IMG/VR virus record: IMGVR_UViG_3300045995_000561
Location: 1 to 39,052 of that record
DNA: 39,052 bases
Strand: one strand, 5' to 3'
From: a virus
The notes under the pieces were generated by a model that was not told the origin of the DNA, ran no database searches, and worked only from the letters and a program-made list of their open reading frames with translations. A program made the translations under genes and the position numbers. Below are positions 13,287-30,729 of the stretch, in pieces. The number at the start of each line of letters is the position of its first letter. The first letter of the stretch is position 1.

Positions 13287-13760
13287 TCATCCTCCTATCC
13301 GGGCTTTCGCCTTAATCGAAAAGGCGATGCGGGCCAATTGTCCGTTCGCCGTGTTGTTCTGCCGGAGTTGCCGCTGCGGCATCGTCGGATCCGTGAATAG
13401 AACCAGACCGCCCAATGTCGGATCGGCCTGCAGGATCACCTCAACGGCTGCGACGATCCCGTAGGCGGCCGTGCGAATCGCACGCACATCTGTAGTGCCG
13501 GCCCACGCTTCAGCGACACAATGCACCGTCACGTACTCGTTGCGCTGTCGTGCACCGAGCCCCACCCACTCCTCCTGCGATTCGGCAGCGATCGGCGCGG
13601 ACACACTGTCCGGATCGTTGAGCCCGACCCATAGAACAAGCTGGGACGGTTCACCTGTTGTGACCGGACCGTCGTACACGGTCACACCCGCTAGTTCAGG
13701 AGCAGCGGCGAACGTGGCTACTAGCCAATCAATAAGGGCCGGTACGACGGTTGTTATCAC
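13287..13760 (-). CDS. Probable tail terminator / neck protein
   Basis: Chosen start is GTG at 13760, which overlaps the stop of the connector gene (GTGA), giving 157 residues beginning MITTVVPALIDWLVATF; the frame is open further upstream but only as a shadow of the connector gene. The order connector, this gene, tail tube, and the size fit a tail terminator or head-tail joining protein. Its middle (ALRTAAYGIVAAVEV-like helix) and a beta-rich end ending FSIKAKARIGG suit that fold class. No firm family match. Confidence 0.7.
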   Translation of the reverse strand: MITTVVPALIDWLVATFAAAPELAGVTVYDGPVTTGEPSQLVLWVGLNDPDSVSAPIAAESQEEWVGLGARQRNEYVTVHCVAEAWAGTTDVRAIRTAAYGIVAAVEVILQADPTLGGLVLFTDPTMPQRQLRQNNTANGQLARIAFSIKAKARIGG

Positions 13761-14629
13761 AATGACACCTGGCTCGCGTACGGCGCCATGATCTCCACCA
13801 CACGGTTCGGGATGGCGAAGCCGAGCCCCACGTTGTGATACGACTGCGTGGCTGCGTCGAACCCGCCGGCGCCCATCACCGGCCGCTGCCCCGGCCCTTG
13901 CTGCGTCTCCCACAAGTGCGCCAGCAGGATCCGCGCCGCCAGGTTAAACGCGGCCGGCAAGGACGCCCCCCAGCCGGCCGTGTACACGACCGTGTAGTAC
14001 GGACCGCGCGACCAGAATGGCAATTCTAGCTTGCGTCGGATAATACCCGCGTTCGTGTCCACGTCCAGGTCTGTGCTCAGAAGTGCCGTACCAGACGCAA
14101 TATCGGTGATAGACGTTACCGCGACGACTGGACGTTGCCGCAGTACCAGCGACCGATAACCATGTCCGACCTTCACCCGCTCGCTAATCGACGTCGTCAC
14201 CAGTGGACCGCCGGTGATACGTTCCAATGTCGACTCAATCGACGCGACCATAACTGCAATCTCAATATCGTACGCCGTGTTCGACTGCGCAATATTGAGA
14301 GCGTCCTTCGCGTCCTGCAGCGGAAGAACTGACGTTTCAAGCGGATCAAAGACATCAAAATCGCCGCTTGGCGAAACACCTGCCGCCACACCGGAAACGC
14401 TTGTGGTTACCCACGCATACGAATAGTGCCCGAGCTGCGACAGGTCGACGGACACAAGATCCTGGTAAAACTTTCCGACTGCAGTATGCGACGGGCTCGC
14501 ATACGTCCCAACAGTCGCATCAGGCCTATGCAAATATAGCGTTACCGTGTCATCCGGGTCTGCCAACACCCCGGAAAGATCGCGGATCTCCGTGGTAACC
14601 CGCATGGACTGACCTAGCGGCACACGCAT
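13757..14629 (-). CDS. Head-tail connector with N-terminal beta domain
   Basis: The 290-residue product appears two-part. Residues about 1-95 look like a small Ig/BppU-like beta domain (RVTTEIRDLSGVLADPDD and HYSYAWVTT). Residues about 100-290 start with VLPLQDAKDALNI and run through helices and a beta sheet in the pattern of HK97 gp6-like connector proteins that sit under the portal. A fused beta domain on a connector is less common than the free form. The ATG at 14629 is the only good start. Role: first ring of the head-tail joint. Confidence 0.75.
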   Translation of the reverse strand: MRVPLGQSMRVTTEIRDLSGVLADPDDTVTLYLHRPDATVGTYASPSHTAVGKFYQDLVSVDLSQLGHYSYAWVTTSVSGVAAGVSPSGDFDVFDPLETSVLPLQDAKDALNIAQSNTAYDIEIAVMVASIESTLERITGGPLVTTSISERVKVGHGYRSLVLRQRPVVAVTSITDIASGTALLSTDLDVDTNAGIIRRKLELPFWSRGPYYTVVYTAGWGASLPAAFNLAARILLAHLWETQQGPGQRPVMGAGGFDAATQSYHNVGLGFAIPNRVVEIMAPYASQVSL

Positions 14630-14641
14630 GGCATCCCCCGA

Positions 14642-14974
14642 TCAAGCATCGTCAAGGTCGGCCGTGATCAGAACCGTGTTGAAACCAGGATCGGGGAACG
14701 TCTGCTTTCCCCCACCTGAAAAGGTGACCTGCCATTCCGCGGTGTAACTGCCGGCCGTGGCCGTGTCAGCCGCAATTGGAGTGTAAGACACGATCCCGCT
14801 AGAACCGTTAACGATCGTCGCAGAAGCGTTAACCACGACCCCCACGCCACCGTCCAATTTCATGATGAACTTAACAACGGAGCCTGACACGTTGACCGGC
14901 ACACCAACCGCGTCCAACAGTTGGACTTGAATGGCGGGGAATGTGTCGTGTCTCTTCCACCAGAAGTCTGTCAC
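14642..14974 (-). CDS. BppU N-terminal-like small virion protein
   Basis: A 110-residue beta-rich protein beginning MTDFWWKRHDTFPAIQVQL. The layout (two strands, a Val-rich strand with KFIMKLDGG, then GIVSYTPIAADTATAGSY and EWQVTFSGG) is the pattern of BppU N-terminal / Ig-like baseplate domains that bind fibres to virions. It overlaps the stop region of the repeat fibre gene upstream by four bases. It may be an adaptor anchoring those fibres, which is inference from adjacency. Confidence 0.65.
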   Translation of the reverse strand: MTDFWWKRHDTFPAIQVQLLDAVGVPVNVSGSVVKFIMKLDGGVGVVVNASATIVNGSSGIVSYTPIAADTATAGSYTAEWQVTFSGGGKQTFPDPGFNTVLITADLDDA

Positions 14975-17706
14975 TGCACCACCGCCGAACTGTTCCCGCG
15001 GTTCCCTTGTGGCGCCGCACCCGATTGACCGTTGCCAGCTTGCACGACAGTTGACGTCATGCCGCTAGCAACCGTTCTTATGTTGCCCAGCCCGGAGCCG
15101 AGCATGACCGTGACCCCGATACCCTGTGGGAGCATTCGTATAACACCTGCGACCTGCATCGTGTCCGAAGACGACGCGGTCGCGGACAACAGCACCACGA
15201 CAGTGACCGTGAACGTGTCCGCACTTGTCGCGCTGTCGCTGAGCGAGTTCGGGGCCAATGCATTAAGCACATCGGACACTAGTGCGCTCTCACTGAACGA
15301 CCTTGTGGCCGCCACATTAAGTACGTCGGATACTGAGGCATTATCGTTTAACAAGTTCGAAGCTATAACGTTAATCGCATCGGCCACCAATGCAACGTCA
15401 CCCAGCAAGTTTGAAGCTACGATATTGAACGTATCGGACACTGATACGGTTTCGCTCAGCTGAGTCGAAGCATTAGCATTGAACGCATTAGATGCTAATG
15501 CACTATCGCTCAGCAACCTAGAATCAATGCTAAACGTATCGGATGCGACGCCTACTTCTACTAGGATCGGCGTCCCCATGACCGCGACACTAAGACTATC
15601 CGCGCCCAAACTAGTGTCACTCACCAGTACCGCAACGCCGGCCGCAAAACTATCTATAGCGATACTCGCGTCGGTCAACGAAGTCGCAGCGCTGACCGCG
15701 ACAGTCGTCGCAACCGCACCCGCGTCGCCCACCGAACTCGAAGCAGCGACGACGAATCCATCAGTCGCCGCAGCGACGTCAACAAGCAGATTCAAAGCCG
15801 CTATACCGAGCGTGTCGAATGCTAACGCGGTCTCATTCAGCAGGTTCAAGACCGCGACATTCAACGTGTCAGACACTGACGCGATATCGCTCAACGAGAC
15901 CGCAACATTAACAGCGCAGGTCGTCGCGCCAATTCCAGCGTCGCTAAGTCCGAGCGTTACCGTTAGCGTATCTGCGACAATTCCCGCGTCACTCAGAGGA
16001 GTAACAGTCGCAACGAGAAGTGACTCCCCGCACTGTCCGTTATCGGACTGGGGAATAGCAACGACCGACCCGGTAAACTGGTGCAAATAGCCTAGTGCCA
16101 TGACGGCTGCGGTAGTGGCGGCCGTCCCCGTACTAACATACGAATGACTACCTACGGTTACGGTCCCCGCTGAATCGCAAAGCTCAACAGAAGCACAGTT
16201 AACGCCGCCGGCCGTGTCCGCCCGTTCGATCAGCGGAGCCGTCGGAATCCACGACGACGAGTTACGGTCCGCGAACAGCGCGAGCGCCCAACCTGTCGAT
16301 GCGGGCGCGACAACAGCCGGGGTCGTGTGTGGCGAAGCTGATGCGACCTCAGCCAGCAACGTCAGCGAATCTATCGGAGTAGCAATTTCGACGCCCGCAT
16401 ATCCTTGCGCTACCAGGCCGATGGCGTAGCCCGTGCTCCCTGCTGGCCCAGTAAATGCGAACGTGTGCGTCGGGGTTGTTCCATTTGACACCCAAGTCCA
16501 AACAAACAGCTCGGCGGGAGGAGTCGCATCTCGCTGTAAGTGTCCGCGTTCAATTACAGTCCCGGGCGGTGTGCAAATAGCGGCGCCCGAAGTGGCCCCG
16601 TTGACCCGGAGACTGCCCCCAATAATGACAACAGACCCGGACACGCAGACCGGCATAACGATGCCCAACTGCGTGGCAGTTTGACTCGCGCCCGTATTAG
16701 CGGTGGTCGCTGCGCCATCTAGCGCGATGACCCCGGCCTGCACGTACCCTGTGAGGTACCCGCCTACGTACCCGCCGCCGCCTAACGTCGTCGTCGTCGA
16801 AACGCTAAGCGTGTCAGACGCACTGCCCGTCTGAGCCAGTGACGCGTACGTGTTGCCTACATAACCTGTGCGGTATCCGCCTACGTACCCGCCACCTATT
16901 GTCGTCATTACTGAGACAGTAAGCGTGTCGGACACGCTACCCGTCTCTGCTAGGAACCCACTCCGTGCCACGACGAGCGTGTCGGACGCGCTACCCGTCT
17001 CTGCTAGGGGCCCGCTCCATGCCACGCTGAACGTGTCTGAAGCACTACCCGTCTGGGCCAGGGAAACAGGCGTGCCTCCCGCGGTCGGCATGACCTCGAC
17101 GGCCACCAAACTGTTCGTAGCCGCCGCCGTATTGGAATAACCAACGGTCACCGCTCCTGGCGTACCATTCGCCGTCAGGCGGAACGCGCCGGTTGTATCG
17201 CCGGCGAAACCATTAAATGAGCCTAAGGAGGTTGTGACCCCATTGACGGTCAATGCCTGAGCGTCAGTTGCTCGTGCCAGTGTGCCGACGATTAATGAGC
17301 CGGCTGTCGTGACCGTTATAGCAACGCTGTATGCAGTGCTGTTGACCAGGGCCGTCGCACCAGGCTGACTCGCTGAAGCCAGCGCTCCTGTCAGTACCAG
17401 CACCTTTAGTAAAACGTCATTTTGTCCGGACGTGTACGTTACTTGCATTGCTGAGCCGGTGCCGTCACGACAGAATACTTCGGCTGTGGGAGCAGTCGGA
17501 TTTTCCCGCTTTAGCAGTTTCCATGAACCGCTTAGGGTATCCGTTACTGCGCCGTTATTTAAGGTCCCCGCCCCGGAGCCATTGCCTAACGCACACAAGG
17601 CGACAACTAACGAGCCAGCGGGTGGGGTGAACGACGCCGATTGCACCGATAAGGCGCTCGCACTAACTACGGCCGGGGTCGACCCGTCGATAGTGACTGC
17701 CATCAT
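14971..17706 (-). CDS. Large repetitive fibre protein with 18-residue repeats
   Basis: This 911-residue protein shares its repeat with the next gene upstream. Residues 1-208 form a beta domain (SFTPPAGSLVVALCALG at its start); about 215-325 hold four repeats (LAETGSASDTL type) interleaved with two Tyr/Gly motifs, GGGYVGGYRTGYVGNTY and GGGGYVGGYLTGYVQ; about 330-560 are a second beta domain; about 565-855 carry about 16 more repeats (LSDAGIVADTLTV type); the C-terminus is Gly/Gln/Asn-rich. It starts with ATG at 17706 (ATGA overlap) or at 17703. No enzyme motif. Probably an elongated virion fibre. Confidence 0.75.
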   Translation of the reverse strand: MMAVTIDGSTPAVVSASALSVQSASFTPPAGSLVVALCALGNGSGAGTLNNGAVTDTLSGSWKLLKRENPTAPTAEVFCRDGTGSAMQVTYTSGQNDVLLKVLVLTGALASASQPGATALVNSTAYSVAITVTTAGSLIVGTLARATDAQALTVNGVTTSLGSFNGFAGDTTGAFRLTANGTPGAVTVGYSNTAAATNSLVAVEVMPTAGGTPVSLAQTGSASDTFSVAWSGPLAETGSASDTLVVARSGFLAETGSVSDTLTVSVMTTIGGGYVGGYRTGYVGNTYASLAQTGSASDTLSVSTTTTLGGGGYVGGYLTGYVQAGVIALDGAATTANTGASQTATQLGIVMPVCVSGSVVIIGGSLRVNGATSGAAICTPPGTVIERGHLQRDATPPAELFVWTWVSNGTTPTHTFAFTGPAGSTGYAIGLVAQGYAGVEIATPIDSLTLLAEVASASPHTTPAVVAPASTGWALALFADRNSSSWIPTAPLIERADTAGGVNCASVELCDSAGTVTVGSHSYVSTGTAATTAAVMALGYLHQFTGSVVAIPQSDNGQCGESLLVATVTPLSDAGIVADTLTVTLGLSDAGIGATTCAVNVAVSLSDIASVSDTLNVAVLNLLNETALAFDTLGIAALNLLVDVAAATDGFVVAASSSVGDAGAVATTVAVSAATSLTDASIAIDSFAAGVAVLVSDTSLGADSLSVAVMGTPILVEVGVASDTFSIDSRLLSDSALASNAFNANASTQLSETVSVSDTFNIVASNLLGDVALVADAINVIASNLLNDNASVSDVLNVAATRSFSESALVSDVLNALAPNSLSDSATSADTFTVTVVVLLSATASSSDTMQVAGVIRMLPQGIGVTVMLGSGLGNIRTVASGMTSTVVQAGNGQSGAAPQGNRGNSSAVVQ
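15150..15995 (-). repeat. 54-bp (18-residue) repeat array in fibre gene
   Basis: About 16 degenerate units with consensus L-[S/N]-[D/E]-x-[A/G]-x-x-[S/A]-D-[T/S]-[L/F]-x-[V/I] and a five-residue spacer. Units have diverged at DNA level and keep only the protein pattern. A separate cluster of four similar units lies at about 16790-17065. Limits are approximate. Confidence 0.85.
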
Positions 17707-20700
17707 GCGCCCGCGAACGCTTGCGCCGTTACCACAGAAGCAGGTATCAGTTGATTAGTGACGGCGCTTAGCACTGCAGTGGCCATCGTCGCAGTACTCG
17801 TAACGATGACGGTGGTCCGGACAATAAGCGGTGATGGCGCACCCGGCCCAGACGCAGAGAACTGTTCGGCGGCGATACCTGCATCGTCGAGTTCGATGGT
17901 GGCGCTGACTGCTAGACCATCTGTGCCGACTCCGGCATCGAACATGTTAAGAGCCGCCGCGGCGCCGCCCGAGTCCGCGCCCGCGCCCGCATCGCTAAGG
18001 ACAACGACGCGCGCACCGATGAAGCTATCCGCGGCCGTGCCCACGTCCGGCAGGGTCGTCGCGACAGTTTCGGCTATCGTGTCAGCGGCTACGCCACCAT
18101 CCGAAAGTGGCGAAATGGCGGTGACGATGAAGGCATCAACCGCAGCGCCCGTATCTACGAGCAAAGGTCCGCCCGCGACCTGAACATTGTCTGTCCCTGA
18201 CCCGACGTCGGTCAGCTGGACCGTCTTAGCAACACCTAGCGTGTCGGCGGCGACTCCTGCGTCCCCAACGCTACCGATAGAGACAACGTTGAGACTGTCA
18301 GCGCCTTGTCCGACATCAGAGAGAATGGGTGTGCTAGATCCTGCAACCGTTAGCGCATCCGCGCCAATGCCCGTGTCGCCGACCGTGCCTGCGGCCGTAA
18401 CAGCGACGGCGTCGGCCGCCGTGCCCGCGTCCGATACAGGGATCGCGGACATGACCGTCAAAACGTCAGCGACCACCCCAGCATCGCTAAACGCTGCAGG
18501 GACAACCCCCACGACCAGACTTTCAACGCCCTGACCAGCCTCGACGAAGGGAGCCGCTGCGGAAACAGCGGCCGTGTCGGCGCTGACGCCCGAATCGACG
18601 GCAATGGCGACTACTACGACGGCGGACGCATCTGCGCCAGTTCCGGTATCCGCCAGCGTTTTAAGCGTGACCCCCTGATCGACAGTTAGACCGTCCGTGA
18701 CCACGCCGCCATCGCTCAAAGAGTTAACGGCGACGACTGCGAGACCATCCGCGCATTGACCAACCTCAGAGAGGATGGGTGTGCTGGAGCCTCCAACCGT
18801 AAGCGCGTCCGCACCAGTAGCCGCGTCATTCAAACCGACTATGGCCGTGATGGCAACGCTGTCAGCGCCCGCGCCAGTATCTGGCGCAGCCACCGCTGCT
18901 ACCACTCCGAAGCTGTCAGCGGCTGTCCCCGCCTCGGCGAAGGCCACTGGAGCGCCAACCGACAGCGTGTCCGTGCCAGCGCCCGTGTCCGCGAGCTGGG
19001 TTCCAGCCGTGACAGTTGTGTTGTCGGCGGCGGCGCCCGTATCGCTCACATTAGCGGCCACGCCCACCGACGTGGAGTCCACGCCAGACCCGACGTCGCT
19101 GAGAGTCTTGGGTATCCCCTGTTCGACCGTAACCGAATCGACGCCACTCCCGACATCGCCGAGGGTCGCGGCGGCTACAACCGTCGTCGTTTCCGCACCT
19201 GCACCGGCATCGCTGGCGCTTAGCGCGACCGCGACTGCCGCGGAATCCGCCGCCGCTCCCGTATCGCCCAACGGAACAGGCCGAGCGACAGCGAGGCCAT
19301 CAGCGGCCGTCCCCGTGTCGCCCGCCGACGACGCGACAACAACCACGAAACTGTCCGCGGACGCGCCCGCGTCCGCAAGAATTGGCGCGGTAGAACCTGC
19401 AACGGTGATGCCGTCCGCAACTACCCCAGACTCAGTAAGAGACGTTGCGACAATGACCGTAACAGTGTCAGCGCTGACGCTGGCATCACCCACCGCGACC
19501 GTCACTGCGACCGTTGCGGCATCCGCACTCGTGGCCGAATCTGCGAAGGCCGCCGGAACGGCAACAAAGAGACTATCTGCGGCTGTCCCAGACTCAGCGA
19601 GAAGTCCCGTGACAGTGGCAGTGCATGTGTCGACGCCCGACCCGACATCCCCAGCGGCAATCGCAACTGCGACAGCCACAGTATCTGCGCCCGCGCCGGC
19701 ATCTGCGAGAGCCACCGGAACAGCGACGGCGAAACTATCTGCAGCCGAACCCGTATCGCTCGTCACTGCTGCAACTACCACAGCCGTCACAGAGTCAGAA
19801 CCAGCTCCAGCCTCCGCGAGCATCGGAGCACTAGAGACCGCTACAGTAACGTTATCTACAGTTGTCCCGGTCTCAGTAAGAAGCCCCGAAGCAGCGACGG
19901 CGAGACTGTCAGCGCTGGTCCCGACATCCCCGGCAACAGCCGCCGCTGCCACTATCGCGGTATCTGCAGCCGACGCTGCGTCCGCAAGTGCAATCGGAAC
20001 AGCGACAGTCAAACTGTCCGCAGCCGCGCCGCTCTCGGAAAGGGGAACGAGAGCGGCCGCTGCCAGACTGTCCACGCCAGCGCCAGACTCGCTGCCGGGG
20101 ACGGCCGCTCCAACCGCCAGGAAGTCCGCGGCCGCGCCCTGATCGCCTATCGGCGTAGCAACGCCCAAAGTGAGCGTGTCAACGACAGCACCAGCATCAC
20201 CGACTAGGACAGCCGATCCGATAATTGATGCATCTGCGACGATGCCTACGTCCGTAAACGACACGGCGGCATTCGCTGCCGAACTGTCCACTACCTGACT
20301 GGTGTCCGACAATGCTACGGGCCGCGCCGACGACGAACTGTCTGCGGCCGTACCTGCGTCGGACATTACGGTCAGCGCAACCGCGGACACTGTGTCCGTA
20401 GTTGCGCCTGTCTCGGACAAAACGGCCAGCGCAGCAAGTACGAAGTTATCCGCTCCGACACCGCTATCATTTAGCGCAGCAGCAACAGTCACGCTAAATG
20501 AGTTGGCCGCTGCCCCCGTCTCGCCCAACGTCGCTACAGCAGTAACAACCAGCGAGTCCGCACCTACGCCCGTATCGCCCAACGCCGCTACAGCAGCAAC
20601 AGTTACAACATCAGCAGTAGCCGCGCCTGCATCGCTCAAAGTTACAGCAGTAGCCCCAGCCGGAGCCGCAATCGGATGGGTGTGCCGAACCAGCGGCATC

Positions 20701-20726
20701 GGGAACAAGCGGCCAGCGCGGGCCAT
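17703..20726 (-). CDS. Giant 18-residue-repeat fibre protein
   Basis: The 1007-residue product is almost wholly repeat. After a 30-residue start (MARAGRLFPMPLVRHTH), about 51 units of 18 residues follow, with consensus L-[SGA]-[DE]-[TAS]-G-x-[GA]-[AV]-D-[ST]-[LFV]-x-V and a short Ala/Val spacer; a few units are 20-21 residues, with inserts such as SSTPI. It is very rich in Ala, Val, Asp, Gly, Ser and Thr and has almost no Lys, Trp or Tyr. The ATG at 20726 follows an AGGGGG about five bases upstream. The pattern predicts a regular beta-solenoid or stacked beta-turn rod. It probably forms a long virion fibre; no known family was recognised. Confidence 0.8.
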   Translation of the reverse strand: MARAGRLFPMPLVRHTHPIAAPAGATAVTLSDAGAATADVVTVAAVAALGDTGVGADSLVVTAVATLGETGAAANSFSVTVAAALNDSGVGADNFVLAALAVLSETGATTDTVSAVALTVMSDAGTAADSSSSARPVALSDTSQVVDSSAANAAVSFTDVGIVADASIIGSAVLVGDAGAVVDTLTLGVATPIGDQGAAADFLAVGAAVPGSESGAGVDSLAAAALVPLSESGAAADSLTVAVPIALADAASAADTAIVAAAAVAGDVGTSADSLAVAASGLLTETGTTVDNVTVAVSSAPMLAEAGAGSDSVTAVVVAAVTSDTGSAADSFAVAVPVALADAGAGADTVAVAVAIAAGDVGSGVDTCTATVTGLLAESGTAADSLFVAVPAAFADSATSADAATVAVTVAVGDASVSADTVTVIVATSLTESGVVADGITVAGSTAPILADAGASADSFVVVVASSAGDTGTAADGLAVARPVPLGDTGAAADSAAVAVALSASDAGAGAETTTVVAAATLGDVGSGVDSVTVEQGIPKTLSDVGSGVDSTSVGVAANVSDTGAAADNTTVTAGTQLADTGAGTDTLSVGAPVAFAEAGTAADSFGVVAAVAAPDTGAGADSVAITAIVGLNDAATGADALTVGGSSTPILSEVGQCADGLAVVAVNSLSDGGVVTDGLTVDQGVTLKTLADTGTGADASAVVVVAIAVDSGVSADTAAVSAAAPFVEAGQGVESLVVGVVPAAFSDAGVVADVLTVMSAIPVSDAGTAADAVAVTAAGTVGDTGIGADALTVAGSSTPILSDVGQGADSLNVVSIGSVGDAGVAADTLGVAKTVQLTDVGSGTDNVQVAGGPLLVDTGAAVDAFIVTAISPLSDGGVAADTIAETVATTLPDVGTAADSFIGARVVVLSDAGAGADSGGAAAALNMFDAGVGTDGLAVSATIELDDAGIAAEQFSASGPGAPSPLIVRTTVIVTSTATMATAVLSAVTNQLIPASVVTAQAFAGA
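17850..20645 (-). repeat. About 51 tandem 54-bp repeats in giant fibre gene
   Basis: The coding strand repeats every 54 bp, for example the paired cgtctcgcccaac and cgtatcgcccaac near 20516 and 20570. Units are strongly diverged in DNA but keep Gly, Asp and hydrophobic positions in the protein, arguing for long selection on the protein pattern rather than recent expansion. There is no constant spacer or conserved repeat at DNA level, so it is not a CRISPR. Confidence 0.9.
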
Positions 20727-21040: not shown

Positions 21041-21511
21041 TCACTCGGCCCACGCCACGCCAAACGTCACGTTAACGATGGCTGCTGCCGTACAACGGAT
21101 CCGCCAAAACTTTGAGACCGGAACAATCGGTTCCCGACCATCCGGGTACATCACATAAATACCACTGGTTGGTGACACGCGATGAATCTCCACCGCCTGC
21201 GTGCCATGCACCGGGATGCCCGCCCCCTCGGTCGACGTGGTATGCGTGACGATTGAAGACGGATCCGGGCCAGCCCCATCGCGGCGCCCCTCCACACTCG
21301 CGGTCAGTGCAGTACCTGTCGTGACGGCAATATCAAAACGACCGACCTCTACCTTCACCGGAATTGCAGTAGCAGTAACCCCGTCAAACTCGACCCACCA
21401 CTCCTTGATTAAAGTTCTGCTAGTTGATGCAGTAGCCAACTGACACACCGTCTTAGCGGTAGCAGCCGCAAGCGCGATCGCATCAACAGACACGCTATAA
21501 ATTTCGGCCAT
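21041..21511 (-). CDS. Virion-associated protein of unknown function
   Basis: The 156-residue product starts MAEIYSVSVDAIALAAATAK and alternates strands and turns, with EVGRFDIAVTTGTAL in the middle and VSKFWRIRCTAAA near the end. The pattern is a compact beta sandwich like proteins found beside fibre genes of actinophages. No catalytic residues stand out. It lies in the block of probable fibre genes and is likely a structural or adaptor protein by position. Confidence 0.65.
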   Translation of the reverse strand: MAEIYSVSVDAIALAAATAKTVCQLATASTSRTLIKEWWVEFDGVTATAIPVKVEVGRFDIAVTTGTALTASVEGRRDGAGPDPSSIVTHTTSTEGAGIPVHGTQAVEIHRVSPTSGIYVMYPDGREPIVPVSKFWRIRCTAAAIVNVTFGVAWAE

Positions 21512-21563: not shown

Positions 21564-22304
21564 TTACCATGTCGCCGCCCTCGCCACAGCGAGCACGGGG
21601 ACCTGGCCTCTTATCCGCTTAGAATCATCTGGCACGGAAACGGGGCCAATGAATCCGGTCGAAACGTTCGTAAAAGCCAAGTCATCATAATCGAGTGCGA
21701 GCGTTCCACCGTATACACCAAAGTTACAATAAGTCAGGTTGGCTGTCCCTGTATTAGCTGTACTGAGCGCCTCATACATCTCAACCGGAGTAATCGAATT
21801 CCCCAGGTAATACGCTGCGCGTATAGTCCCATTCGATATTGTGGTCCCCGCCTGTATCGCCAACTCGAACCGATATATGGTACTCGCGACCAGTTTCGCG
21901 GATGACTGCCATACCTCTGTCTGTGGGCTTCCTCTAACGGAGAAGTACCCCGCCGTATTTACCCCTGCGCCTCCCGCGACCGCGTCGCCCGCACCACTGA
22001 AAATGACTGGGCAAGTGCTAACTGGCGCCAGCGACCCCAACCGAAAATAACCACGAAGCGTCATGATCGCGCTACCGGTAACCACCCAACGCAGCCATGA
22101 GAAAGGCGCATCGCCCGTTACCGTCGAGTAGAACCCAAGCGTCCCGACGCCAGAAATTGCCGAACCTGTTGCGTAGATCGCAGCCGCGGCCCCCCCTCCT
22201 GTATAAACAGTGGTGAATGCATCTCCAGACGCTCCACCACTGTTCCCAGTGGTGACGGTTGTACTGTTGGAGCCGCCTTCACCGCTATTAACTAGAAGCG
22301 TCAC
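21564..22304 (-). CDS. Concanavalin A-like jelly-roll virion protein
   Basis: A 246-residue protein starting with GTG at 22304. It has a Gly/Ser/Thr-rich start and then a jelly-roll pattern (LRGYFRLGSLAPVSTCPVIF, STIYRFELAIQAGTTISNGT, and a final LDYDDLAFTNVS). The DYDDLAF ending is characteristic of concanavalin A-like/LamG domains in phage adhesins, which bind sugars. It sits just downstream of the beta-helix protein and may bind host surface glycans; inferred from fold and position. Confidence 0.65.
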   Translation of the reverse strand: MTLLVNSGEGGSNSTTVTTGNSGGASGDAFTTVYTGGGAAAAIYATGSAISGVGTLGFYSTVTGDAPFSWLRWVVTGSAIMTLRGYFRLGSLAPVSTCPVIFSGAGDAVAGGAGVNTAGYFSVRGSPQTEVWQSSAKLVASTIYRFELAIQAGTTISNGTIRAAYYLGNSITPVEMYEALSTANTGTANLTYCNFGVYGGTLALDYDDLAFTNVSTGFIGPVSVPDDSKRIRGQVPVLAVARAATW

Positions 22305-22341: not shown

Positions 22342-24297
22342 TTAAACAGATGGAGAAAGCGGCGGTGTCGTTGATGCGTAAGCGCCTTTACCTACCGCAG
22401 GGCTACCTGTATTTAGCCGATAATTTCGGGCCGCCGCGTTAACATACAACGGATCACCTGTCGTCGTCGCCGACTCTGTCGTGTTGGTGGCTGTGACGTT
22501 GCCATTCGCGTTATTGTACCAATGGCAGTTATCCACCGTGCATGCTGGAGTCACTGTGTTCCCAGCGTTAACAGCCGAATGACCGTTTGACCCACCCGAC
22601 TGCGACGGATTAACCAAATTCGACACTATAGTATGATGAATGTTATGTCCACCATCCGTCGAAGTCGACGTGCCGGGTTCGTCACCGTAAACAATTCCAG
22701 AAGTGCAATGATCTATCGTATTGTACTGGACAACGGCAAAACTCGACGACGGGTATAACTGCATACCGTAGTCGCCGCCCCACATCCCCGCAAACCCGAT
22801 GTCATAGAAAATGCAGCCATAAACTTGCAACCCAGTCCCCGTACACCAATAGATGCCGTGTCCCGGTCCTGGGGTAGGGTCACCCCCCAAAACATTGTGT
22901 ATGATGCACCCGGCAAAGACACAGTTATTAGCTTGCACGTTCGTGCCGCCGACCATAATACCCTGAACGCTCTGATCGGCGCCATCGATTATGCACGAGT
23001 AGAACTGCGCGCCTGTGACGGCGACACCCGCCCTGGCTATGCCGATCGGAACCAAATTAGACCCGCTGTTGCTCAAGCTAATATCGACGTTCTCTAACGA
23101 CGTATAACTAGTGTTAAGTTCCACGCCTCCCACAAGCTGAGGTCGTGAATCGCCAGGATACCCAATGAGTCTAAGCAGATTCCCGGAAGTTCCTCCGACA
23201 GTGGTCTGAAGGAGCATTCCCCCCGCACTTGTCGTGTATGTTCCGCCTCGGATAGCCCCATTCTGCCCCGCACTAAGATTATCCGCGAGTTTCTGAATGG
23301 TAAGGTAAGGCGCCCCGATGGTTCCCGGATTTGAGTTGCTGCCGCCAGGCGCACAGTACTTCGCGAAAGGAATAGATGAGACCGGAGTAACAGAGTTCGA
23401 CGCAACACTTACTCGGGAACCTACCGTATTAACAGCAGTCACTGTAAAAGTTTGGGCTACAGACGTCAGTCCCGTTGCGTTAAACGTAGTAGCAGCAGCA
23501 CTAATCCCCGTGAACGTAGGTCCCGCACTGGACGTCACCGTATAACTAGTCAACGGCGACGAACCGTTCCCGGCCTGCGTCCACGCCACAGTGACCGTGG
23601 TCGAATCGACTACCGTAGCTGTTGGCGCTATTGGAGGGGCTGGCAGTCGCGGCACTAACGTCGTCGCAGTCGTTGCCGTCAAATCGTCCCAGCGAGACCC
23701 GCTATCCTCGTCCGTTGTCGGATTCCACCACGACCGTAAACCAACTCTAGTCCCTGGCAAATCCGTATTGTCTTGTGCCAGGAACGTGTAGTTACCGGAG
23801 GCGACGCCGTCCACATACGCGGTGACCGTCGTGGATGTTAATAACACAGCTAACGTGTATCCACGCCCCGCAACGAAGTTCATCGGCGTGGTAGTCACCC
23901 AATAAGTCGAAACTCCAGATACACGTTTAGAGATTCTTAACTGATCTGCTCCGGTGGCATGCCACATCTGAACGGCCATATACGAATTTATGTCGGTCCC
24001 GCGAAGGACTAGACCGGCATGCGCGTTAGTCGCTGACAACATGACATCGACTACTACGAGACTGGCCGCCGCTCCGGCCGGGAGCATCGCAATCGCCTGC
24101 GTATCCACCGTGCCTGCCGTGAGACGCGCAGCGTTACCACTAATGGCCCAAGTATTCGATAACACCGACCATGCACCACCAACATCGGCGGTACCTAATA
24201 CGCCGTCGGCCCGACCGAACGTGTCAGAAGCAACCGTCGTGACAGCGACTGCTCCACGACCAGCGACCGTCCCACGGCGCAGAGCGTTGACAGTCAC
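22342..24297 (-). CDS. Spike-like protein: LamG-like, Fn3 and beta-helix domains
   Basis: A 651-residue protein with three visible parts. Residues about 20-210 are a LamG/concanavalin-like domain (DTFGRADGVLGTADVGGAW, then RVGLRSWW and WDDLTA). Residues about 218-315 are an Fn3 domain (PTATVVDSTTVTVAWTQ). Residues about 320-640 are a right-handed beta-helix (GTIGAPYLTIQKLADNLSAG opening, then N-x-x-I-x-H-type rungs such as VQYNTIDHCTSGI and NIHHTIVSNLV). The opening resembles pectate-lyase-like tailspikes. It may bind or cleave a surface polysaccharide; active-site residues were not identified. Confidence 0.75.
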   Translation of the reverse strand: MTVNALRRGTVAGRGAVAVTTVASDTFGRADGVLGTADVGGAWSVLSNTWAISGNAARLTAGTVDTQAIAMLPAGAAASLVVVDVMLSATNAHAGLVLRGTDINSYMAVQMWHATGADQLRISKRVSGVSTYWVTTTPMNFVAGRGYTLAVLLTSTTVTAYVDGVASGNYTFLAQDNTDLPGTRVGLRSWWNPTTDEDSGSRWDDLTATTATTLVPRLPAPPIAPTATVVDSTTVTVAWTQAGNGSSPLTSYTVTSSAGPTFTGISAAATTFNATGLTSVAQTFTVTAVNTVGSRVSVASNSVTPVSSIPFAKYCAPGGSNSNPGTIGAPYLTIQKLADNLSAGQNGAIRGGTYTTSAGGMLLQTTVGGTSGNLLRLIGYPGDSRPQLVGGVELNTSYTSLENVDISLSNSGSNLVPIGIARAGVAVTGAQFYSCIIDGADQSVQGIMVGGTNVQANNCVFAGCIIHNVLGGDPTPGPGHGIYWCTGTGLQVYGCIFYDIGFAGMWGGDYGMQLYPSSSFAVVQYNTIDHCTSGIVYGDEPGTSTSTDGGHNIHHTIVSNLVNPSQSGGSNGHSAVNAGNTVTPACTVDNCHWYNNANGNVTATNTTESATTTGDPLYVNAAARNYRLNTGSPAVGKGAYASTTPPLSPSV

Positions 24298-24758
24298 GAA
24301 ATATCACCTTCAAGACACCACTCATCGGTCGCACGTTTCCGCAGAGTGGCCGACCCGTATTGGGCTGCGATATGCGACTTGCCAGCAGGCGCACGGATTG
24401 TCACTCCTGCGCCGCCAACCGTTACTTGCCCTAAACCTTGCTGCCACAGTTCAATGACCGTACCAACGGGAAACCCCGGAAGTGCCGCGTTGGTAGGTAT
24501 AGTCAAGGTCACCACCCCTGCGTTGTTGAGTTCCACAACCTTGCCCGCATCAGCCAGCACCAGCGTGTACGTAGTGCCGGTCTGGTTGTTAGCGATGACA
24601 CCGGCGAGCATTACCGGCGTCGGCGGCAACGTATCCTTATCTATCGCGTTAAGGGTTGTATGCCCCGTGTCATGATGCTGCTGGTGTATCGGGACGCTAG
24701 CATCGCCCGCATCGGCATATGTCGCATCAATGTTGACGGGCAGTCCCGGTCCGGCCAT
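24294..24758 (-). CDS. Virion protein with fibre C-terminal-type beta domain
   Basis: Start set at ATG 24758, preceded by a GGGGG run about six bases upstream; 154 residues. The N-terminal 45 residues are extended and polar (DASVPIHQQHHDTGH). The rest reads as a beta domain with ADAGKVVELNNAG, FPVGTVIELWQQG and a final WCLEGDIS, a pattern common at C-termini of phage fibre proteins. It overlaps the next ATG by four bases, coupling it to the beta-helix gene. Adaptor or decoration role inferred. Confidence 0.68.
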   Translation of the reverse strand: MAGPGLPVNIDATYADAGDASVPIHQQHHDTGHTTLNAIDKDTLPPTPVMLAGVIANNQTGTTYTLVLADAGKVVELNNAGVVTLTIPTNAALPGFPVGTVIELWQQGLGQVTVGGAGVTIRAPAGKSHIAAQYGSATLRKRATDEWCLEGDIS

Positions 24759-24761
24759 CAA

Positions 24762-24935: not shown

Positions 24936-25610
24936 TTACGTGAAGTCGAGCGCTGCTGTAGCCGTCCACGTTTGTCCTGAGACTTTCGTGCCCTGCGCCG
25001 ACACCGCACGGTTCAACAGCGGCGTAGTGGCAGCGGCCGTGCCCGAACCTGCGACACCCTGGTCGATACCCCATTCGGCCCACACAAAGTTGGCGTCACC
25101 CGTCGCGAAGGTCGCAGTAAACGAAAGCCGCTGCGTGGCGGTGCCGGCCGCAATGATGCCCGAGCCGGTGACCATGTTGAAGAACCGCCCGGTCGGGCCG
25201 GTCGCCGCACTTAGGTCAACTTGCGACGCAGACGCCGCCGCGGATGCTGTGCCGACACCGATCCGGCAGCTCGCACTTCCCCACGACGAGTTGCCGCCGC
25301 CAGTACCCGTGGCGATAGCCAAACTCAAAACCCGGTTCCAGCCACCGGTCGTGAACAGGTTGTGCTCATGAGGAAGCGACACAGTCACCGAATACGGCTT
25401 AATGCCGAGCTGGCGGAACATCACATCGTTGGGCGGGACGAACCCCCGACGGCCGGCCTGCTCGCCGCCCATCTTCCGCGACGCCCAGGACGTCGCGTCC
25501 TCATCCCACCGCGCGACAGTGATCCCACCGGTCTCACGTCCGGCTTCCTGCCACGGGGCCATTCCAACATGCAGACCCATACCGTCAGTGCCGAACCCGA
25601 TCTCACTCAT
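24936..25610 (-). CDS. Probable actinophage virion protein of unknown function
   Basis: A 224-residue protein beginning MSEIGFGTDGMGLHVGM. Residues about 70-220 show a recurrent actinophage pattern: HNLFTTGGWNRVLSLAI, then CRIGVGTAS, FFNMVTGSGI, FVWAEWGIDQ and a late LLNRAVSAQGTKVSGQTW. I recognise this layout from phage structural regions but cannot name the family. No membrane segments. Its start is embedded in the end of the upstream Pro-rich gene (eight-base overlap). Likely a minor capsid, decoration or fibre-base protein. Confidence 0.65.
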   Translation of the reverse strand: MSEIGFGTDGMGLHVGMAPWQEAGRETGGITVARWDEDATSWASRKMGGEQAGRRGFVPPNDVMFRQLGIKPYSVTVSLPHEHNLFTTGGWNRVLSLAIATGTGGGNSSWGSASCRIGVGTASAAASASQVDLSAATGPTGRFFNMVTGSGIIAAGTATQRLSFTATFATGDANFVWAEWGIDQGVAGSGTAAATTPLLNRAVSAQGTKVSGQTWTATAALDFT

Positions 25611-25845: not shown

Positions 25846-26865
25846 TCAGCCTCCTACCGACTCGTAGGCGGACTCCCAGAGCCGCCAGCCTGTGTCCTGC
25901 ATAGTCCAGCCACGAGCGACCTCGCGACCCTTCGCGCCCATCTCCGCACGCATATCCGCATCGTGGATCAGCGCGTCAATCTGCGCGTACCACTCGTCCT
26001 CAGTCTTCACCAAGAACCCCGTCACCCCGTCGATGACGAAATCTCGATATGGCAGCGAATCAGAAGCGACAATCGGAATACCCATCGCCGCCGCCTCAAG
26101 CGCCTTAAGATGCGACTTCGAGCGGTTGAACGGATGGTCGGCCAACGGCGCAATCGCAATATCAAAATGGGACGTACCCTTATAGTGATCCCACACGTCC
26201 TGCTGCCACGTAGACCACCGACATGTACGCTTCACCAGCGGGCTATAGTCGAAACCGGCGAAATGCATCTGCACAGCCGGATTATCTTCAAGGACACGAC
26301 GCAGCGGATCAGCCACCGTCACCATGTCCATCAGATGCGACGTACCACCCTGCCAGCCGACAGTAAGCGGACGATCCTCCGGCAGTTCCTTCTGCCAACG
26401 TTCCGACTCGGAAATCAACTCGCCGTTAACGTGATTTTGCAACACCACAACGTTATCGTTAAGTTCTTCGACCTGCTCCGCCAGATACGGCGTCGACACC
26501 GTCACCATGTCCGCCAGGCGGATACAGCGGCGGATCGTCCCCCGCATCTTCTCGTCATACAAGTGCGGCAGCCCCGACGGATCGACCTGCAACATGTCGT
26601 CGTCAGTCTCGTAGACGAGCGCTGCCTTACCCTGCAACTGCTCCATCTGACGCACACCCGGCTTACCAGCCGGCCTCTGCATCGCCAGCACATCAATCTG
26701 CGACAGCTCTGCATCGCTCGGTGACCACTGCTGCCCGATCGGCGGCATTCCACACATATGCTCCGACTTATCCGCCAACCACCGGAACGGCAGATAGAAA
26801 CGGTAGTATCCCGACCCGTCGGGCGCATGCGCCATGCCCGCGATCGTCAACATTCTCTGCGTCAC
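25846..26865 (-). CDS. GT4-family (GT-B fold) glycosyltransferase
   Basis: The 339-residue product has a GT-B layout. The N-terminal half has GSGYYRFYLPFRWLAD and DMVTVSTPYLAEQVEE; the C-terminal nucleotide-sugar half begins with LTVGWQGGTSHLMD (about 167-180) and contains the GT4 signature region SKSHLKALEAAAMGIPIVAS (Lys250, Glu257) before YRDFVIDGVTGFLV. Start is GTG at 26865 overlapping the stop of the previous gene (GTGA). It probably transfers a sugar to a virion protein, to phage DNA or to a host surface glycan. Adjacent methyltransferase and sugar-transfer-like genes support a modification pathway. Confidence 0.82.
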   Translation of the reverse strand: MTQRMLTIAGMAHAPDGSGYYRFYLPFRWLADKSEHMCGMPPIGQQWSPSDAELSQIDVLAMQRPAGKPGVRQMEQLQGKAALVYETDDDMLQVDPSGLPHLYDEKMRGTIRRCIRLADMVTVSTPYLAEQVEELNDNVVVLQNHVNGELISESERWQKELPEDRPLTVGWQGGTSHLMDMVTVADPLRRVLEDNPAVQMHFAGFDYSPLVKRTCRWSTWQQDVWDHYKGTSHFDIAIAPLADHPFNRSKSHLKALEAAAMGIPIVASDSLPYRDFVIDGVTGFLVKTEDEWYAQIDALIHDADMRAEMGAKGREVARGWTMQDTGWRLWESAYESVGG

Positions 26866-27131
26866 AGTGCCGTCCCCATCGTTCCCCAGTTCCCACCGGT
26901 AGTGTGATCAAGATAGTTCGCTATGACAGCCCTACGTGCAGGGCCTGGCGTAGCTGCCGACAGTGCCGCCGCGCACGCATCGCGGGCCGCAACCGTAGTG
27001 AAATGAATCGGCAGGTAGTCTTTCCCGCCGTCCTCCCACGTTGTAGACCCCGGTAGCGACGAGTTGAAGAAGAACACCCCGACAGCGTCTACGCCGACGT
27101 TGCTTTCTGGGTCGAAGTTCCCGCTCGCCAT
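26862..27131 (-). CDS. Small protein of unknown function in modification island
   Basis: The 89-residue protein begins MASGNFDPESNVGVDAVGVFF and contains DYLPIHFTTVAARDACAAAL and TPGPARRAVIANYLDH. It is mostly helical with one Cys and resembles no family I know. ATG at 27131 follows the methyltransferase stop by one base; its own stop overlaps the glycosyltransferase start. Given the tight coupling it may assist or be a substrate of the flanking enzymes. Confidence 0.6.
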   Translation of the reverse strand: MASGNFDPESNVGVDAVGVFFFNSSLPGSTTWEDGGKDYLPIHFTTVAARDACAAALSAATPGPARRAVIANYLDHTTGGNWGTMGTAL

Positions 27132-27132
27132 G

Positions 27133-27810
27133 TCAACGCCTCACAATCGTCACAGGCTCATCAGGCCACTGCCGAACAAACCCGATCCCACCCCACGTAT
27201 CCGGCGCATTCAAAATCTCGTCCTTATCACCGTTCACCTGCTGCCAGAACTTCTGCACACCCACCCCAGGATGATTCGGATGCGGCGACACATCGTGAAA
27301 CACGATCATGCCCTCGTTCGCGACCATCGGCGCGTACATCAGAAAATCCTGCTTCACGCCCTCATACGTGTGATCACCGTCGATGAACAGCACATCGATC
27401 GGCTCGCCACCTAAAAGGTCGGACAGCGCCGTACGCGTCTCGTCCGCGTGCGAATCACCGCGAATAACCTCACAGCCGTGGTCCACCAGCAGATTCTCCG
27501 TACCCCACGGATTATCCTCACCGTGCGTCTGTGGCCCCTCAATCCCGATCACACGCGGGACACCGATCTGCCGCCACGCCCACAACGTCCCACCCGCATC
27601 ACAGCCGATCTCCACCATGATGCGCGGCTTCGGACTCATATCCACCAGCACCGCCAGAAACCCGGCCAACTCACTCGGCTTCTGCAACGCGCCATGCCGC
27701 TGCACCGCCGTCTGCGCGATCGTCCGCAGACTGTTCTTCTTCGCCGACGGAGGCGCGGGGGCCGTCTGCGTGAAAGCTGGTAACTGTGCCAACACATCTC
27801 CCATGTTCAC
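27133..27810 (-). CDS. Class I SAM-dependent methyltransferase
   Basis: About 225 residues. Motif I is VEIGCDAGGT (about 66-75) and motif IV-like is VLFIDGDHTYEGV (about 140-152, Asp145), followed by NEGMIVFHDV. This arrangement matches the methyltransferase/CmcI-like group that often modifies sugars or small molecules rather than DNA; no DPPY motif is present. Start is GTG at 27810 (GTGA overlap with the upstream gene) or ATG at 27804. Flanked by two sugar-transfer-type genes, it may O-methylate a sugar laid down by them. Confidence 0.78.
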   Translation of the reverse strand: MNMGDVLAQLPAFTQTAPAPPSAKKNSLRTIAQTAVQRHGALQKPSELAGFLAVLVDMSPKPRIMVEIGCDAGGTLWAWRQIGVPRVIGIEGPQTHGEDNPWGTENLLVDHGCEVIRGDSHADETRTALSDLLGGEPIDVLFIDGDHTYEGVKQDFLMYAPMVANEGMIVFHDVSPHPNHPGVGVQKFWQQVNGDKDEILNAPDTWGGIGFVRQWPDEPVTIVRR

Positions 27811-28433
27811 AAGCCGACACTGCGTTGCTCCGGCGGCTCACCGTCATAGAACTCCAACGGCCAGCCTGCCGCCATATCGTAAACATCCGGGAACGCCGTA
27901 TTCATCCACGACTCAGCTAGCAGCCGATAGCTATTGCCCGGCGGCGCCATCCGTCGCAGAAGACTCGCTCTCGCCCACCAGAAGTTACCCGCAAAGAACG
28001 ACCCCACCGTCCGCGGCAACCAATAACATCCGACCGCCTCGTGTTCGCTAAGCTGCCGAACACATTCGCGCCAGCCTGCGACCACACCCCGCGTAATATT
28101 CTCGCGCCACACGTCACAGCGGCCGTTCGAAACACCTTTAGTGTGCGCATAGAGCACGCCGTCCGCAGGGTCGAACGTGGCCGCGGCGGCGTGCAAAACA
28201 CCCAGCGTAACCTGCTCCCAACCCTTGTCAGCCTCAGCGACAACCTCAGTCGGGACGCGACCCGCGCAGGTCTCTGCCGCCTGACGCCTCAACTCGGCTG
28301 GCCCGACAAGTCCCAGTTGCAGCGGGCGGTCTAGTCGCTCAGATAGCCCGCTGTCCACCAGGACATCGAGGTGCCGGACCAGAACGGGGCGCCATTCCCC
28401 CACCAGGTACGCATGGTAATAATGCACGATCAT
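27807..28433 (-). CDS. Probable glycosyltransferase-like protein (rhamnan synthesis F-like)
   Basis: From ATG 28433 the product has 208 residues; an ATG at 28451 would add six. It starts MIVHYYHAYLVGEWRPVLV, then has VLYAHTKGVSNGRCDVWRE (about 95-115) and VGSFFAGNFWWARASLLRRM (about 145-165). The HTKG and FWWARASL pair recalls the RgpF/rhamnan synthesis glycosyltransferase-like families, but the match is from memory and partial. No membrane segment. It starts the modification island directly after a strong hairpin that almost covers its ribosome binding site. Confidence 0.55.
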   Translation of the reverse strand: MIVHYYHAYLVGEWRPVLVRHLDVLVDSGLSERLDRPLQLGLVGPAELRRQAAETCAGRVPTEVVAEADKGWEQVTLGVLHAAAATFDPADGVLYAHTKGVSNGRCDVWRENITRGVVAGWRECVRQLSEHEAVGCYWLPRTVGSFFAGNFWWARASLLRRMAPPGNSYRLLAESWMNTAFPDVYDMAAGWPLEFYDGEPPEQRSVGL

Positions 28434-28456
28434 ACGTACAGGATGCCACATGGAAA

Positions 28457-28495
28457 CCGGAGCCCGCCGGAAACATGGGAAGCGGCGGGCTCCGG
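28457..28495 (-). terminator. GC-rich hairpin downstream of HNH gene
   Basis: Perfect 13-bp inverted repeat: CCGGAGCCCGCCG (28457-28469) and its complement (28483-28495), with a 13-base loop. On the minus strand the stem is followed by only a short T run (TTT), so as an intrinsic terminator it is weak in U content but very stable. It sits between the HNH stop and the next gene, and may end or attenuate HNH transcription. Confidence 0.7.
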
Positions 28496-28508
28496 CGAAC
28501 GTGGGAAG

Positions 28509-29196: not shown

Positions 29197-30729
29197 TTAG
29201 TGCGAAGCCGATCCGTTGACCAAGTATCTGAAAGCCGCCGTAGTCCCTGTGGTCGAGGAAGTACGCCAGAACATATACCATCCTGCATTGCCGCTGGGCA
29301 AGAACGTGCCCGATCCCTTGACCATTGGGTCGTACAGCATGCTTACGCCCACACGGTCGCAGATGATGAACTGGTTCCAGTCGGCGTATGCGACTGCAAC
29401 GCCACCGGAGCCGGTTACGCCGGTCATGGTGGTGCTCATGTCAGACGCTTCGTAGATGGGCTTGCCGAGGAGCTGCTCCGGCGTGTCGCTGCCGAAGTTG
29501 GCCCAGAACGAGCTACCGCCGTAGACGTCGATCTGACGGAGTTTGTTGATGTAGTTGAGTGATGCGACCCACGCCGCGCTCGGCGAGTTGCGGAACCGCG
29601 GGGGCAGCGACGCCTGCAGGTTGTACAGGTCCGACGGCGCAAACGTTGCCGTACCGGTGACTGCGGTGCCGGTGGCGGCGAGTGCGGACCCGCCGGGCGC
29701 CCATGCGTTGGTGCCGGCTGCGTTGAACCCGCCGGGGATGAACCCGAGCGGCTGGTTTGTGCCGGATCCGGTCGAGAATGCGGCCGATTCGAGGCGGTCT
29801 TTCGCGTCGCTGAGAAGCCGCGGCAGCTGAGTGCCGAAGTCCTCATCGTCGAGTGCTTCGTACGAGCCGTACACCCAGGCTGCAGCCTTCTGGGGCTTGA
29901 CCTGAATCTGGCCGAGGTCGCCGGTCCACGAGTCGGCTGCGGTCGCACCTTCTGTGGTCCATGCCGCGGTCACACCGGCGCTGTTGACGCCCTGCCATGC
30001 GTTGCTCGTGGTCTGAACGACCCGGGCCAAGCGCCGGAACGGGTTGGCCGACGCAGCGTTGGTGAGGATGATCGTCGGGTCGAGGATGTATGGGAGCAGA
30101 TACCCACCGGACGCGTTGGTCAGGTTGATGGAACGGAGGCTGGGCTCATACTCTTCGGGCTTCTCCAGGTAGTCGGCGAACGCTTTCGCGTATTCGTCGC
30201 TGCCGGTGAGGAGAATGTGCCGGGCGATGCCGGGCAGGTCGGCGCGGACACTGGCCGCTTCGGCGTGCTCATCGGGGAAGTGCCGGTGCTGATCACGGTG
30301 GTCGCGCTCAATAAGGTCGAGCGCCCGCGTGCGCAGTTCACGACTGGACACGAGGTTGCCGCGGACGCGTTCCATGTCGCTGAGCGGGTCACGCTTGTCG
30401 CGGCCGATCAGCAGGTCGGGCGAGCCAACGCGCGCACGGTAGGACTCTGCCGGCGTGTCGTCGGTTGCGGGCTCACGATTGTCGGCGACGACGTGGGCGG
30501 CGGCGATGCGCTTGAGGTCGGCTGCACGCTTGCGGAGCGGGCCGGCAAGCACTTCGTTGCTGTCATATTCGGTGATGAGCGTCTCCTGCCACGCGACGTC
30601 CATGTCGGTGGGCTCTTGGATTTCGCCGATGCGAGTGAGTTCTTGGGTGATGGCCCGCTGACGGTCTTCGATCTGCTGAAGGCCGCGCCGCAGGTTGTTG
30701 GTCGGCCTTTCCTCATCCGGTGCTGGCAT
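29197..30729 (-). CDS. HK97-fold major capsid protein with N-terminal scaffold domain
   Basis: The 510-residue product has a charged helical N-terminal part (about 8-135, starting LRRGLQQIEDRQRAITQEL) of the delta/scaffold type, a linker region with HRDQHRHFPDEHAEA, and the HK97 core from about 195 (SLRSINLTNASGGYLLP) to the end. Core hallmarks visible include NPFRRLARVVQTTSNAW, the ALDDEDFGTQLPRLLSDAKDR spine-helix region and the late VSMLYDPMVKGSG segment. The ATG at 30729 has GGAAG six bases upstream and overlaps the protease gene by 17 bases. It builds the icosahedral head; cleavage by the adjacent protease is expected. Confidence 0.93.
   Translation of the reverse strand: MPAPDEERPTNNLRRGLQQIEDRQRAITQELTRIGEIQEPTDMDVAWQETLITEYDSNEVLAGPLRKRAADLKRIAAAHVVADNREPATDDTPAESYRARVGSPDLLIGRDKRDPLSDMERVRGNLVSSRELRTRALDLIERDHRDQHRHFPDEHAEAASVRADLPGIARHILLTGSDEYAKAFADYLEKPEEYEPSLRSINLTNASGGYLLPYILDPTIILTNAASANPFRRLARVVQTTSNAWQGVNSAGVTAAWTTEGATAADSWTGDLGQIQVKPQKAAAWVYGSYEALDDEDFGTQLPRLLSDAKDRLESAAFSTGSGTNQPLGFIPGGFNAAGTNAWAPGGSALAATGTAVTGTATFAPSDLYNLQASLPPRFRNSPSAAWVASLNYINKLRQIDVYGGSSFWANFGSDTPEQLLGKPIYEASDMSTTMTGVTGSGGVAVAYADWNQFIICDRVGVSMLYDPMVKGSGTFLPSGNAGWYMFWRTSSTTGTTAAFRYLVNGSASH

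Follow-up and report, generated by a model that had tools for sequence, protein, structure and literature searches.

Proteins that carry the repeat discussed here are already present among isolated phages, where they fall into two groups. The first is that of the phrog_416 minor tail proteins of mycobacteriophages, such as FF47 gp25 and Shweta gp21, which have about six D-S-G-x-G-x-D units in the N-terminal half, together with a glycine-rich domain (Gly_rich_2, PF21722). The second is found in the Rhodococcus cluster CF phages (Shagrat gp4/gp5, REQ1 gp64 and Jflix2 gp6), in a module that precedes the terminase gene. Our subject is gene A of the IMG/VR virus record IMGVR_UViG_3300045995_000561, and the window that we analysed is the whole of that record, 39,052 bases, which is classed as linear and is perhaps a fragment. 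Gene A has about 50 units, and differs from the first group in having neither the glycine-rich domain nor a match to phrog_416, while the cluster CF proteins differ from it in their more degenerate repeats and other spacing, and are annotated only as hypothetical. Most likely we are dealing with a known kind of structure, the stalk of a phage fibre, built from a widespread repeat family, new to the libraries searched, with a conserved anchor-like partner. This partner, here called the companion, also lies near the repeat genes of the cluster CF phages.

The repeat array and its family

The sequence-only reading had put the array at about 51 units of 18 residues, and the repeat is real. At lag 18 the gene A protein has a self-identity of 0.293, where composition alone predicts 0.129, with further peaks at lags 36 and 54, and in 300 shuffles the lag identity had a mean of 0.152 and a maximum of 0.173 at any lag. 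A position-specific matrix places 49 units above threshold (shuffled sequences gave a mean of 0.55 and a maximum of 3 in 200 shuffles); an extra weak unit begins near residue 31 and one more was possibly missed, giving 49-51 units. Successive units are 18 residues apart in 39 cases, 20 apart in five and 19 apart in two, and the units have diverged to a mean pairwise identity of 34%.

Position 3 is D or E in every one of the 49 units (38 D and 11 E), and G5 and D9 are each present in 45, which bears out that much of the motif as first described. However the second glycine of its G-x-G, at position 7, is found in only 19, and there is a glycine at position 4 in 2. The repeat region has 104 acidic and 6 basic residues. 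The repeat does fill the open reading frame (ORF) at 17703-20726, but the array extends beyond that gene, as gene B has a further 18 units, many of them without G5. The start codon of gene B overlaps the stop codon of gene A, and their translation is thus probably coupled. In gene B there is also a 54-bp DNA repeat at 16922-17054 (minus strand, 86% matches), which indicates recent duplication of a repeat unit, whereas gene A has none at the DNA level, Tandem Repeats Finder giving no tandem array.

Identity between gene A units at codon positions 1, 2 and 3 is 0.556, 0.569 and 0.300 respectively, compared with 0.433, 0.303 and 0.274 expected from composition. The units are thus alike at the first two positions and near expectation at the third, as for a repeat held by selection at the protein level, and the gene A repeat is an old one maintained in this way. 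The same data bear on whether gene A could be a spurious or decaying low-complexity ORF, which would account for its strongly biased composition, its lack of database matches and the presence of long ORFs on the opposite strand too. That explanation is refuted by the codon-position signature and by the family evidence, and the overlapping start of gene B and the conserved neighbours also stand against it, so that we give it almost no credence.

With regard to the family, a scan based on tblastn brought up 7 related contigs, and 90 stretches matched a DNA pattern that describes two units in succession. A two-unit profile then confirmed 93 repeat ORFs, 87 of them distinct, on about 80 phage contigs, with from 2 to 50 units each. 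The consensus over 1452 units is L1-x-[DE]3-[STA]4-G5-x-G7-x-D9-x-[LVI]11-x-V13-x-x-x-[LV]17-x, and over all loci G5 is present in 89% of units, G7 in 74% and D9 in 83%. The DNA pattern itself demands G5, G7 or C7-like codons and D9, and the frequencies were recomputed on the loci found without it, plus the window, giving 87% for G5, 55% for G7, 81% for D9 and 99% for D or E at position 3. Across the family, of every 100 residues in the repeat regions 11.9 are acidic and 1.3 basic. Short C-terminal tails of repeat ORFs (for example at loci L002, L003, L006 and L055) are in contrast rich in basic residues (10.8 per 100) and are often built of short repeats of their own (GRWSAGAPH, QNRTYVVPA).

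Among the isolated phages the repeat is present in Shagrat, REQ1, Jflix2, FF47 and Shweta, and in Shweta gp21 is encoded downstream of the tape measure gene. Among the 117 genome-contig pattern matches listed, 97 were RTX ORFs, and the only bacterial genomes with the repeat family among these matches were L170 and L199. The former is a contig of Spongiactinospora rosea (Actinomycetota) with three tandem repeat genes in a prophage-like structural module at 68-7759, and the gene order is as in the window: sugar genes, companion, the three repeat genes (interspersed with one for a small domain protein) and adaptor.

A tblastn search with gene A against isolated phages gave no match, the repeat being probably masked by low-complexity filtering, and a less biased relative was used instead. 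Neither gene A nor gene B matched any PHROG, phrog_416 included, although their relatives FF47 gp25, Shweta gp21 and Shagrat gp5 do match that family; pairwise BLAST of gene B with Jflix2 gp6 was weak, and gene A had no sequence match in the PDB. The sole PDB match to the family profile, 9e5c chain 0q, is a LIM-domain protein whose 18-residue repeat of Ala, Glu, Val and Thr is near-perfect; its bias score is high and we took the match as compositional, the likeness being probably one of convergent composition. Matches to phrog_1696 from 16 of 32 segments all fell on one stretch of its 2079-position profile and were likewise discarded. A literature search, its coverage leaving out most subscription journals, found no published description of the repeat. 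No Pfam model or PHROG of its own covers it, despite its presence in about 80 phage contigs and in actinobacterial genomes, and it has gone unnoticed in sequenced isolates; it can now serve as a handle for recognising fibre modules currently annotated as hypothetical.

Predicted fold and likeness to RTX beta-rolls

Eight units were modelled with AlphaFold2 from an alignment (A1) of 32 gap-free rows with no indels. The model has a mean predicted local distance difference test score (pLDDT) of 75.1 and a predicted template modelling score (pTM) of 0.64, with two strands per unit, at positions 9-13 and 17-21 (the latter being 17 to 3 of the next unit), a conserved, acid-capped turn at 4-8 and a variable turn at 14-16. 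Hydrophobic residues alternate at positions 11, 13, 17 and 1. Units of 16, 18 and 20 residues all keep hydrophobic peaks at 11, at 13 and two before the next L1, so that the change in length falls in 14-16, the variable turn of the model, and as there were no indels in the alignment given to AlphaFold2 this agreement is an independent check. A length of 17 residues occurs in only 14 cases, whereas there are 108 units of 16 residues and 99 units of 20, as expected if the strands alternate in and out.

We think it probable, from the model and these indels, that the repeat folds as a beta-solenoid with two strands per unit. The proposal of one solenoid turn per repeat is moderately supported to that extent. 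However the confidence is only moderate and the five models range widely (pLDDT 75, 68, 66, 56 and 53). AlphaFold2 is documented to predict beta-solenoids too readily for repeats, above all for those that are near-perfect, and acidic residues stacked inside a predicted solenoid call for caution if no calcium is bound (PMC11795689). Foldseek gave no significant match for the repeat model, and structural realignment gave Z-scores of 8-12.6 to beta-helices, beta-rolls and RTX proteins, values that are common for repeats.

The likeness to RTX proteins had been offered as an analogy and not a family match, and we agree. The RTX beta-roll (PF00353) has 18 residues per turn, as the predicted solenoid would, is likewise acidic, and has the GxGxD-x-hydrophobic arrangement that is seen in one half of our unit; in RTX proteins calcium is bound by Asp9 and by the carbonyls of Gly5 and Gly7 in the nonapeptide XUXGGXGXD, and the second half-sphere comes 18 residues on (PMC6891781). 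However the nonapeptide does not recur here every 9 residues, as only one half of the 18-residue unit resembles it, and the repeat lacks the GG, the second nonapeptide and the secretion context, and has an extra D or E at position 3. In Pfam there was no PF00353 match for gene A, gene B or 32 family segments. With hhalign the repeat profile aligned to RTX in the expected register with a score of 15.6, but reversed RTX scored 30.4 and permuted columns up to 26, and RTX homology on this basis was rejected.

Region IV of the Marinomonas primoryensis ice-binding protein (3P4G) has a one-sided version of the RTX turn, XGTGND-XUXU, with one calcium-type turn per coil and Ca2+ bound on one side only (PMC6891781). 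Our family consensus matches this one-sided turn position by position, as [STA]-G-x-G-x-D-x-L-x-V, although many units lack G7. The repeat of region IV differs in being 19 residues long and in having GG in its second turn, and none of our tests showed homology between the two.

It is possible, though we would not expect it, that the repeat is a one-sided RTX-like calcium roll, in which by analogy each turn would bind one Ca2+ through Asp9 and the backbone of G5-x-G7. The chain might then be disordered in the low-calcium cytoplasm and stiffen only after lysis, which is compatible with the fibre stalk that we favour and would add metal to it. G5, x6, G7, D9, L11 and V13 all fit both the RTX calcium turn and the Marinomonas repeat, the excess of acidic residues given above also speaks for such a roll, and if the strands alternate, D3 and D9 are expected to face inward without counter-charge. 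The VIA match of the repeat model to RTX751 has a Z-score of 10.2 with a root mean square deviation of 2.7 over 130 residues, but unrelated beta-helices also give 8-12. The low frequency of G7 in gene A, the absence of G4, the many gene B units without G5 and the Pfam and hhalign results count against such a roll, and the invariant feature is the acidic position 3 and not glycine 4. On the same analogy, one-sided calcium-stiffened beta-rolls could make up a large class of phage fibre stalks that has yet to be described, with extracellular Ca2+ arming the adsorption fibre after lysis, but this we consider doubtful. Many actinophages need calcium to adsorb, and a calcium-stiffened stalk, if true, would provide one molecular reason for it.

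A subfamily at loci L020, L045, L066, L074, L086, L013 and L084 has mostly 19-residue units, with hydrophobic residues spaced at 11, 14, 18 and 20. The second half of these units looks helical, and they may be a beta-alpha variant with a different fold.

The companion gene and the fibre stalk

All neighbours of the window gene were searched for in the related loci by iterated profiles, and one stands out. The companion belongs to phrog_23653, which has no assigned function, and is present in 58 loci with one copy in each. It is on the strand of the repeat ORF and within 2.6 kb of it in all 54 loci with a called repeat ORF, and is present in 27 of the 29 repeat loci having at least 3 kb upstream. 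At the sensitivity used it is rare in isolated phages (2 and 7 of 50,697 records); it is annotated as a minor tail protein in Shagrat and Jflix2, and in Listeria phage LIS04 lies directly after baseplate genes. At loci L063, L067, L023 and L085, which were fetched by the repeat pattern, the companion is present but no ORF passes the threshold of the repeat profile; these are possibly cases of degenerate repeats or companion-only modules.

The AlphaFold2 model of the companion is confident (pLDDT 84.1, pTM 0.78, five models at 80-84). Its structural matches are to the HFTV1 tail (Z-score 10.1), A511 gp105 (9.3), the phi812 baseplate (8.7), the GP4 fibre/fibre-tail adaptor (6.9) and T4 gp8 (6.2), the first non-phage match being at 4.2, and a search of BFVD gave tail fibre proteins among the significant matches. 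The HFTV1 tail, some domain of which the companion matches, terminates in a hub that anchors tail fibres (PMC12494034). The predicted fold resembles that of A511 Gp105, a fibre anchor of the baseplate wedge 3 type, over 115 residues at 3.3 A, but sequence identity to gp105 is 8%, and A511 is a myophage whereas the virus of the window looks like a siphophage. The companion is thus a predicted tail-fibre anchor.

The linkage of this companion to the repeat genes, its anchor-like predicted fold and the repeat units that isolates have in their minor tail proteins lead us to think that genes A and B, on balance probably, encode the stalk part of a siphophage host-attachment (adsorption) fibre. Each 18-residue unit would be one turn of a two-strand beta-solenoid. 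The rise per turn of a beta-solenoid is about 4.8 A, and about 50 stacked units would then form a rod of about 25 nm, so that the unusual length first suggested is a relative matter, and holds only if there is one turn per unit. The rod would be joined to the tail by the companion, as an anchor of the A511 gp105 type, and would carry or present the beta-sandwich domains encoded alongside (in the genes at 21564 and 22342 and the N-terminal part of gene B). The number of units varies widely, and the repeat may therefore also set fibre length. The initial description of gene A as a fibre gene is supported by the companion and by the isolates, and it is from these that we infer assembly into the virion, a position on the tail and a role in adsorption.

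The reservations over the repeat model count against this reading, and there are others. Z-scores of 9-10 for the companion indicate a shared fold and not a shared function, phage fibres are usually trimers, and the repeat genes, although in the virion structural module, are on the same strand between the capsid and head-tail adaptor genes instead of following the tape measure gene. Several relatives have them beside scaffold, capsid or terminase genes, so that an appendage of the head or neck is possible, the same solenoid rod being a head fibre or whisker on the shell or connector. Gene order led us at first to favour head decoration: the capsid gene (29197) and adaptor gene (13757) flank the module, the adaptor is directly downstream in 15 of the 18 loci holding one, and in L048 and L083 scaffold-like and capsid genes come immediately after the repeat gene. 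In other relatives the gene following the repeat gene is a small immunoglobulin-like or BppU-like ORF (judged by eye) or terminase. However gene position is a weak guide, as the annotators of the Rhodococcus cluster CF phages report that a tail protein is encoded at the left end of the genome (PMC13313380). The fold of the companion, its place behind baseplate genes in LIS04 and the repeat in the minor tail proteins of two isolates, FF47 and Shweta (in Shweta encoded after the tape measure protein), led us to demote the head or neck appendage, which we now regard as unlikely. If the repeat genes do encode an adsorption fibre, fibre modules can be located ahead of terminase as well as between the genes for capsid and connector. 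The isolates REQ1, Shweta and FF47 allow direct tests of fold, calcium dependence and virion position.

A further possibility is that the repeat region has no solenoid and is a mucin-like extended linker, a low-complexity chain of Ala, Ser, Thr and Asp decorated by the neighbouring glycosyltransferases. Gene A has 20% Ser plus Thr, glycosyltransferase and methyltransferase genes are just upstream in the window, a similar sugar block with an epimerase precedes the companion in L001 and in the Spongiactinospora contig, and the bias of AlphaFold2 towards solenoids also favours it. However sugar genes are present at only 6 of about 99 scanned loci, and glycosylation as a common theme was dropped for this reason. 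A disordered linker also needs neither the periodic hydrophobic and acidic pattern seen throughout the family nor the restriction of indels to one turn, and we think such a linker improbable, rather more so than the head or neck appendage.

Other genes of the window

Coordinates are given in Table 1. The capsid protein is closest to those of Gordonia, Mycobacterium and Rhodococcus phages, with about 31% identity, and the host is therefore probably one of the actinobacteria.

Table 1. Repeat genes and associated features of the window
Feature	Position	Strand	Basis or remarks
Gene A, repeat protein, 1007 amino acids, ATG start	17703..20726	-	Short N-terminus, about 50 units of 18 residues, non-repeat C-terminus of about 45 residues
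Gene A repeat array, residues ~31-965	17832..20636	-	Unit scan
Gene B, 911 amino acids, 18 units in two blocks plus globular segments	14971..17706	-	Start codon overlaps gene A stop
Gene B first repeat block, residues ~216-307	16786..17061	-	Holds the younger 54-bp DNA repeat
Gene B second repeat block, residues ~571-839	15190..15996	-	Unit scan
Companion (phrog_23653), predicted fibre-to-tail anchor	24936..25610	-	Profiles and AlphaFold2 fold
Beta-sandwich-like protein	21564..22304	-	Similar domain fused N-terminally to repeat array in four relatives
Small structural gene	21041..21511	-	Family adjoins repeat gene in 10 of 12 loci having it
Protein of 651 amino acids with fibronectin III-like and DUF5123-like regions	22342..24297	-	Pfam, both regions under cut-off
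Protein with C-terminal domain common to minor tail and virion proteins (phrog_8780, phrog_18179)	24294..24761	-	PHROG match
Small domain protein (phrog_5240 tail fiber / phrog_1084)	14642..14974	-	Similar-sized small ORFs after repeat gene in many relatives
Head-tail adaptor (phrog_442)	13757..14629	-	Family directly after repeat gene in 15 of 18 loci holding adaptor
Sugar gene block	25846..28451	-	Glycosyltransferase 25846-26865, methyltransferase 27133-27810, 27807-28451 without identification
Major capsid protein	29197..30729	-	Context

In the case of the beta-sandwich-like protein, the fusions in four relatives were found by iterated profile at E<1e-4, pairwise BLAST being weak (E 0.52). 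The product of the gene at 22342..24297 could form the head or the spike of a fibre.

Glycosyltransferase, methyltransferase and endonuclease VII genes (25846-29087, minus strand) come directly after the capsid gene. The tape measure protein (4736-10843, minus strand, 2035 amino acids) has tandem repeats of its own, with periods of 129 bp and 132 bp, and an NlpC/P60 domain.

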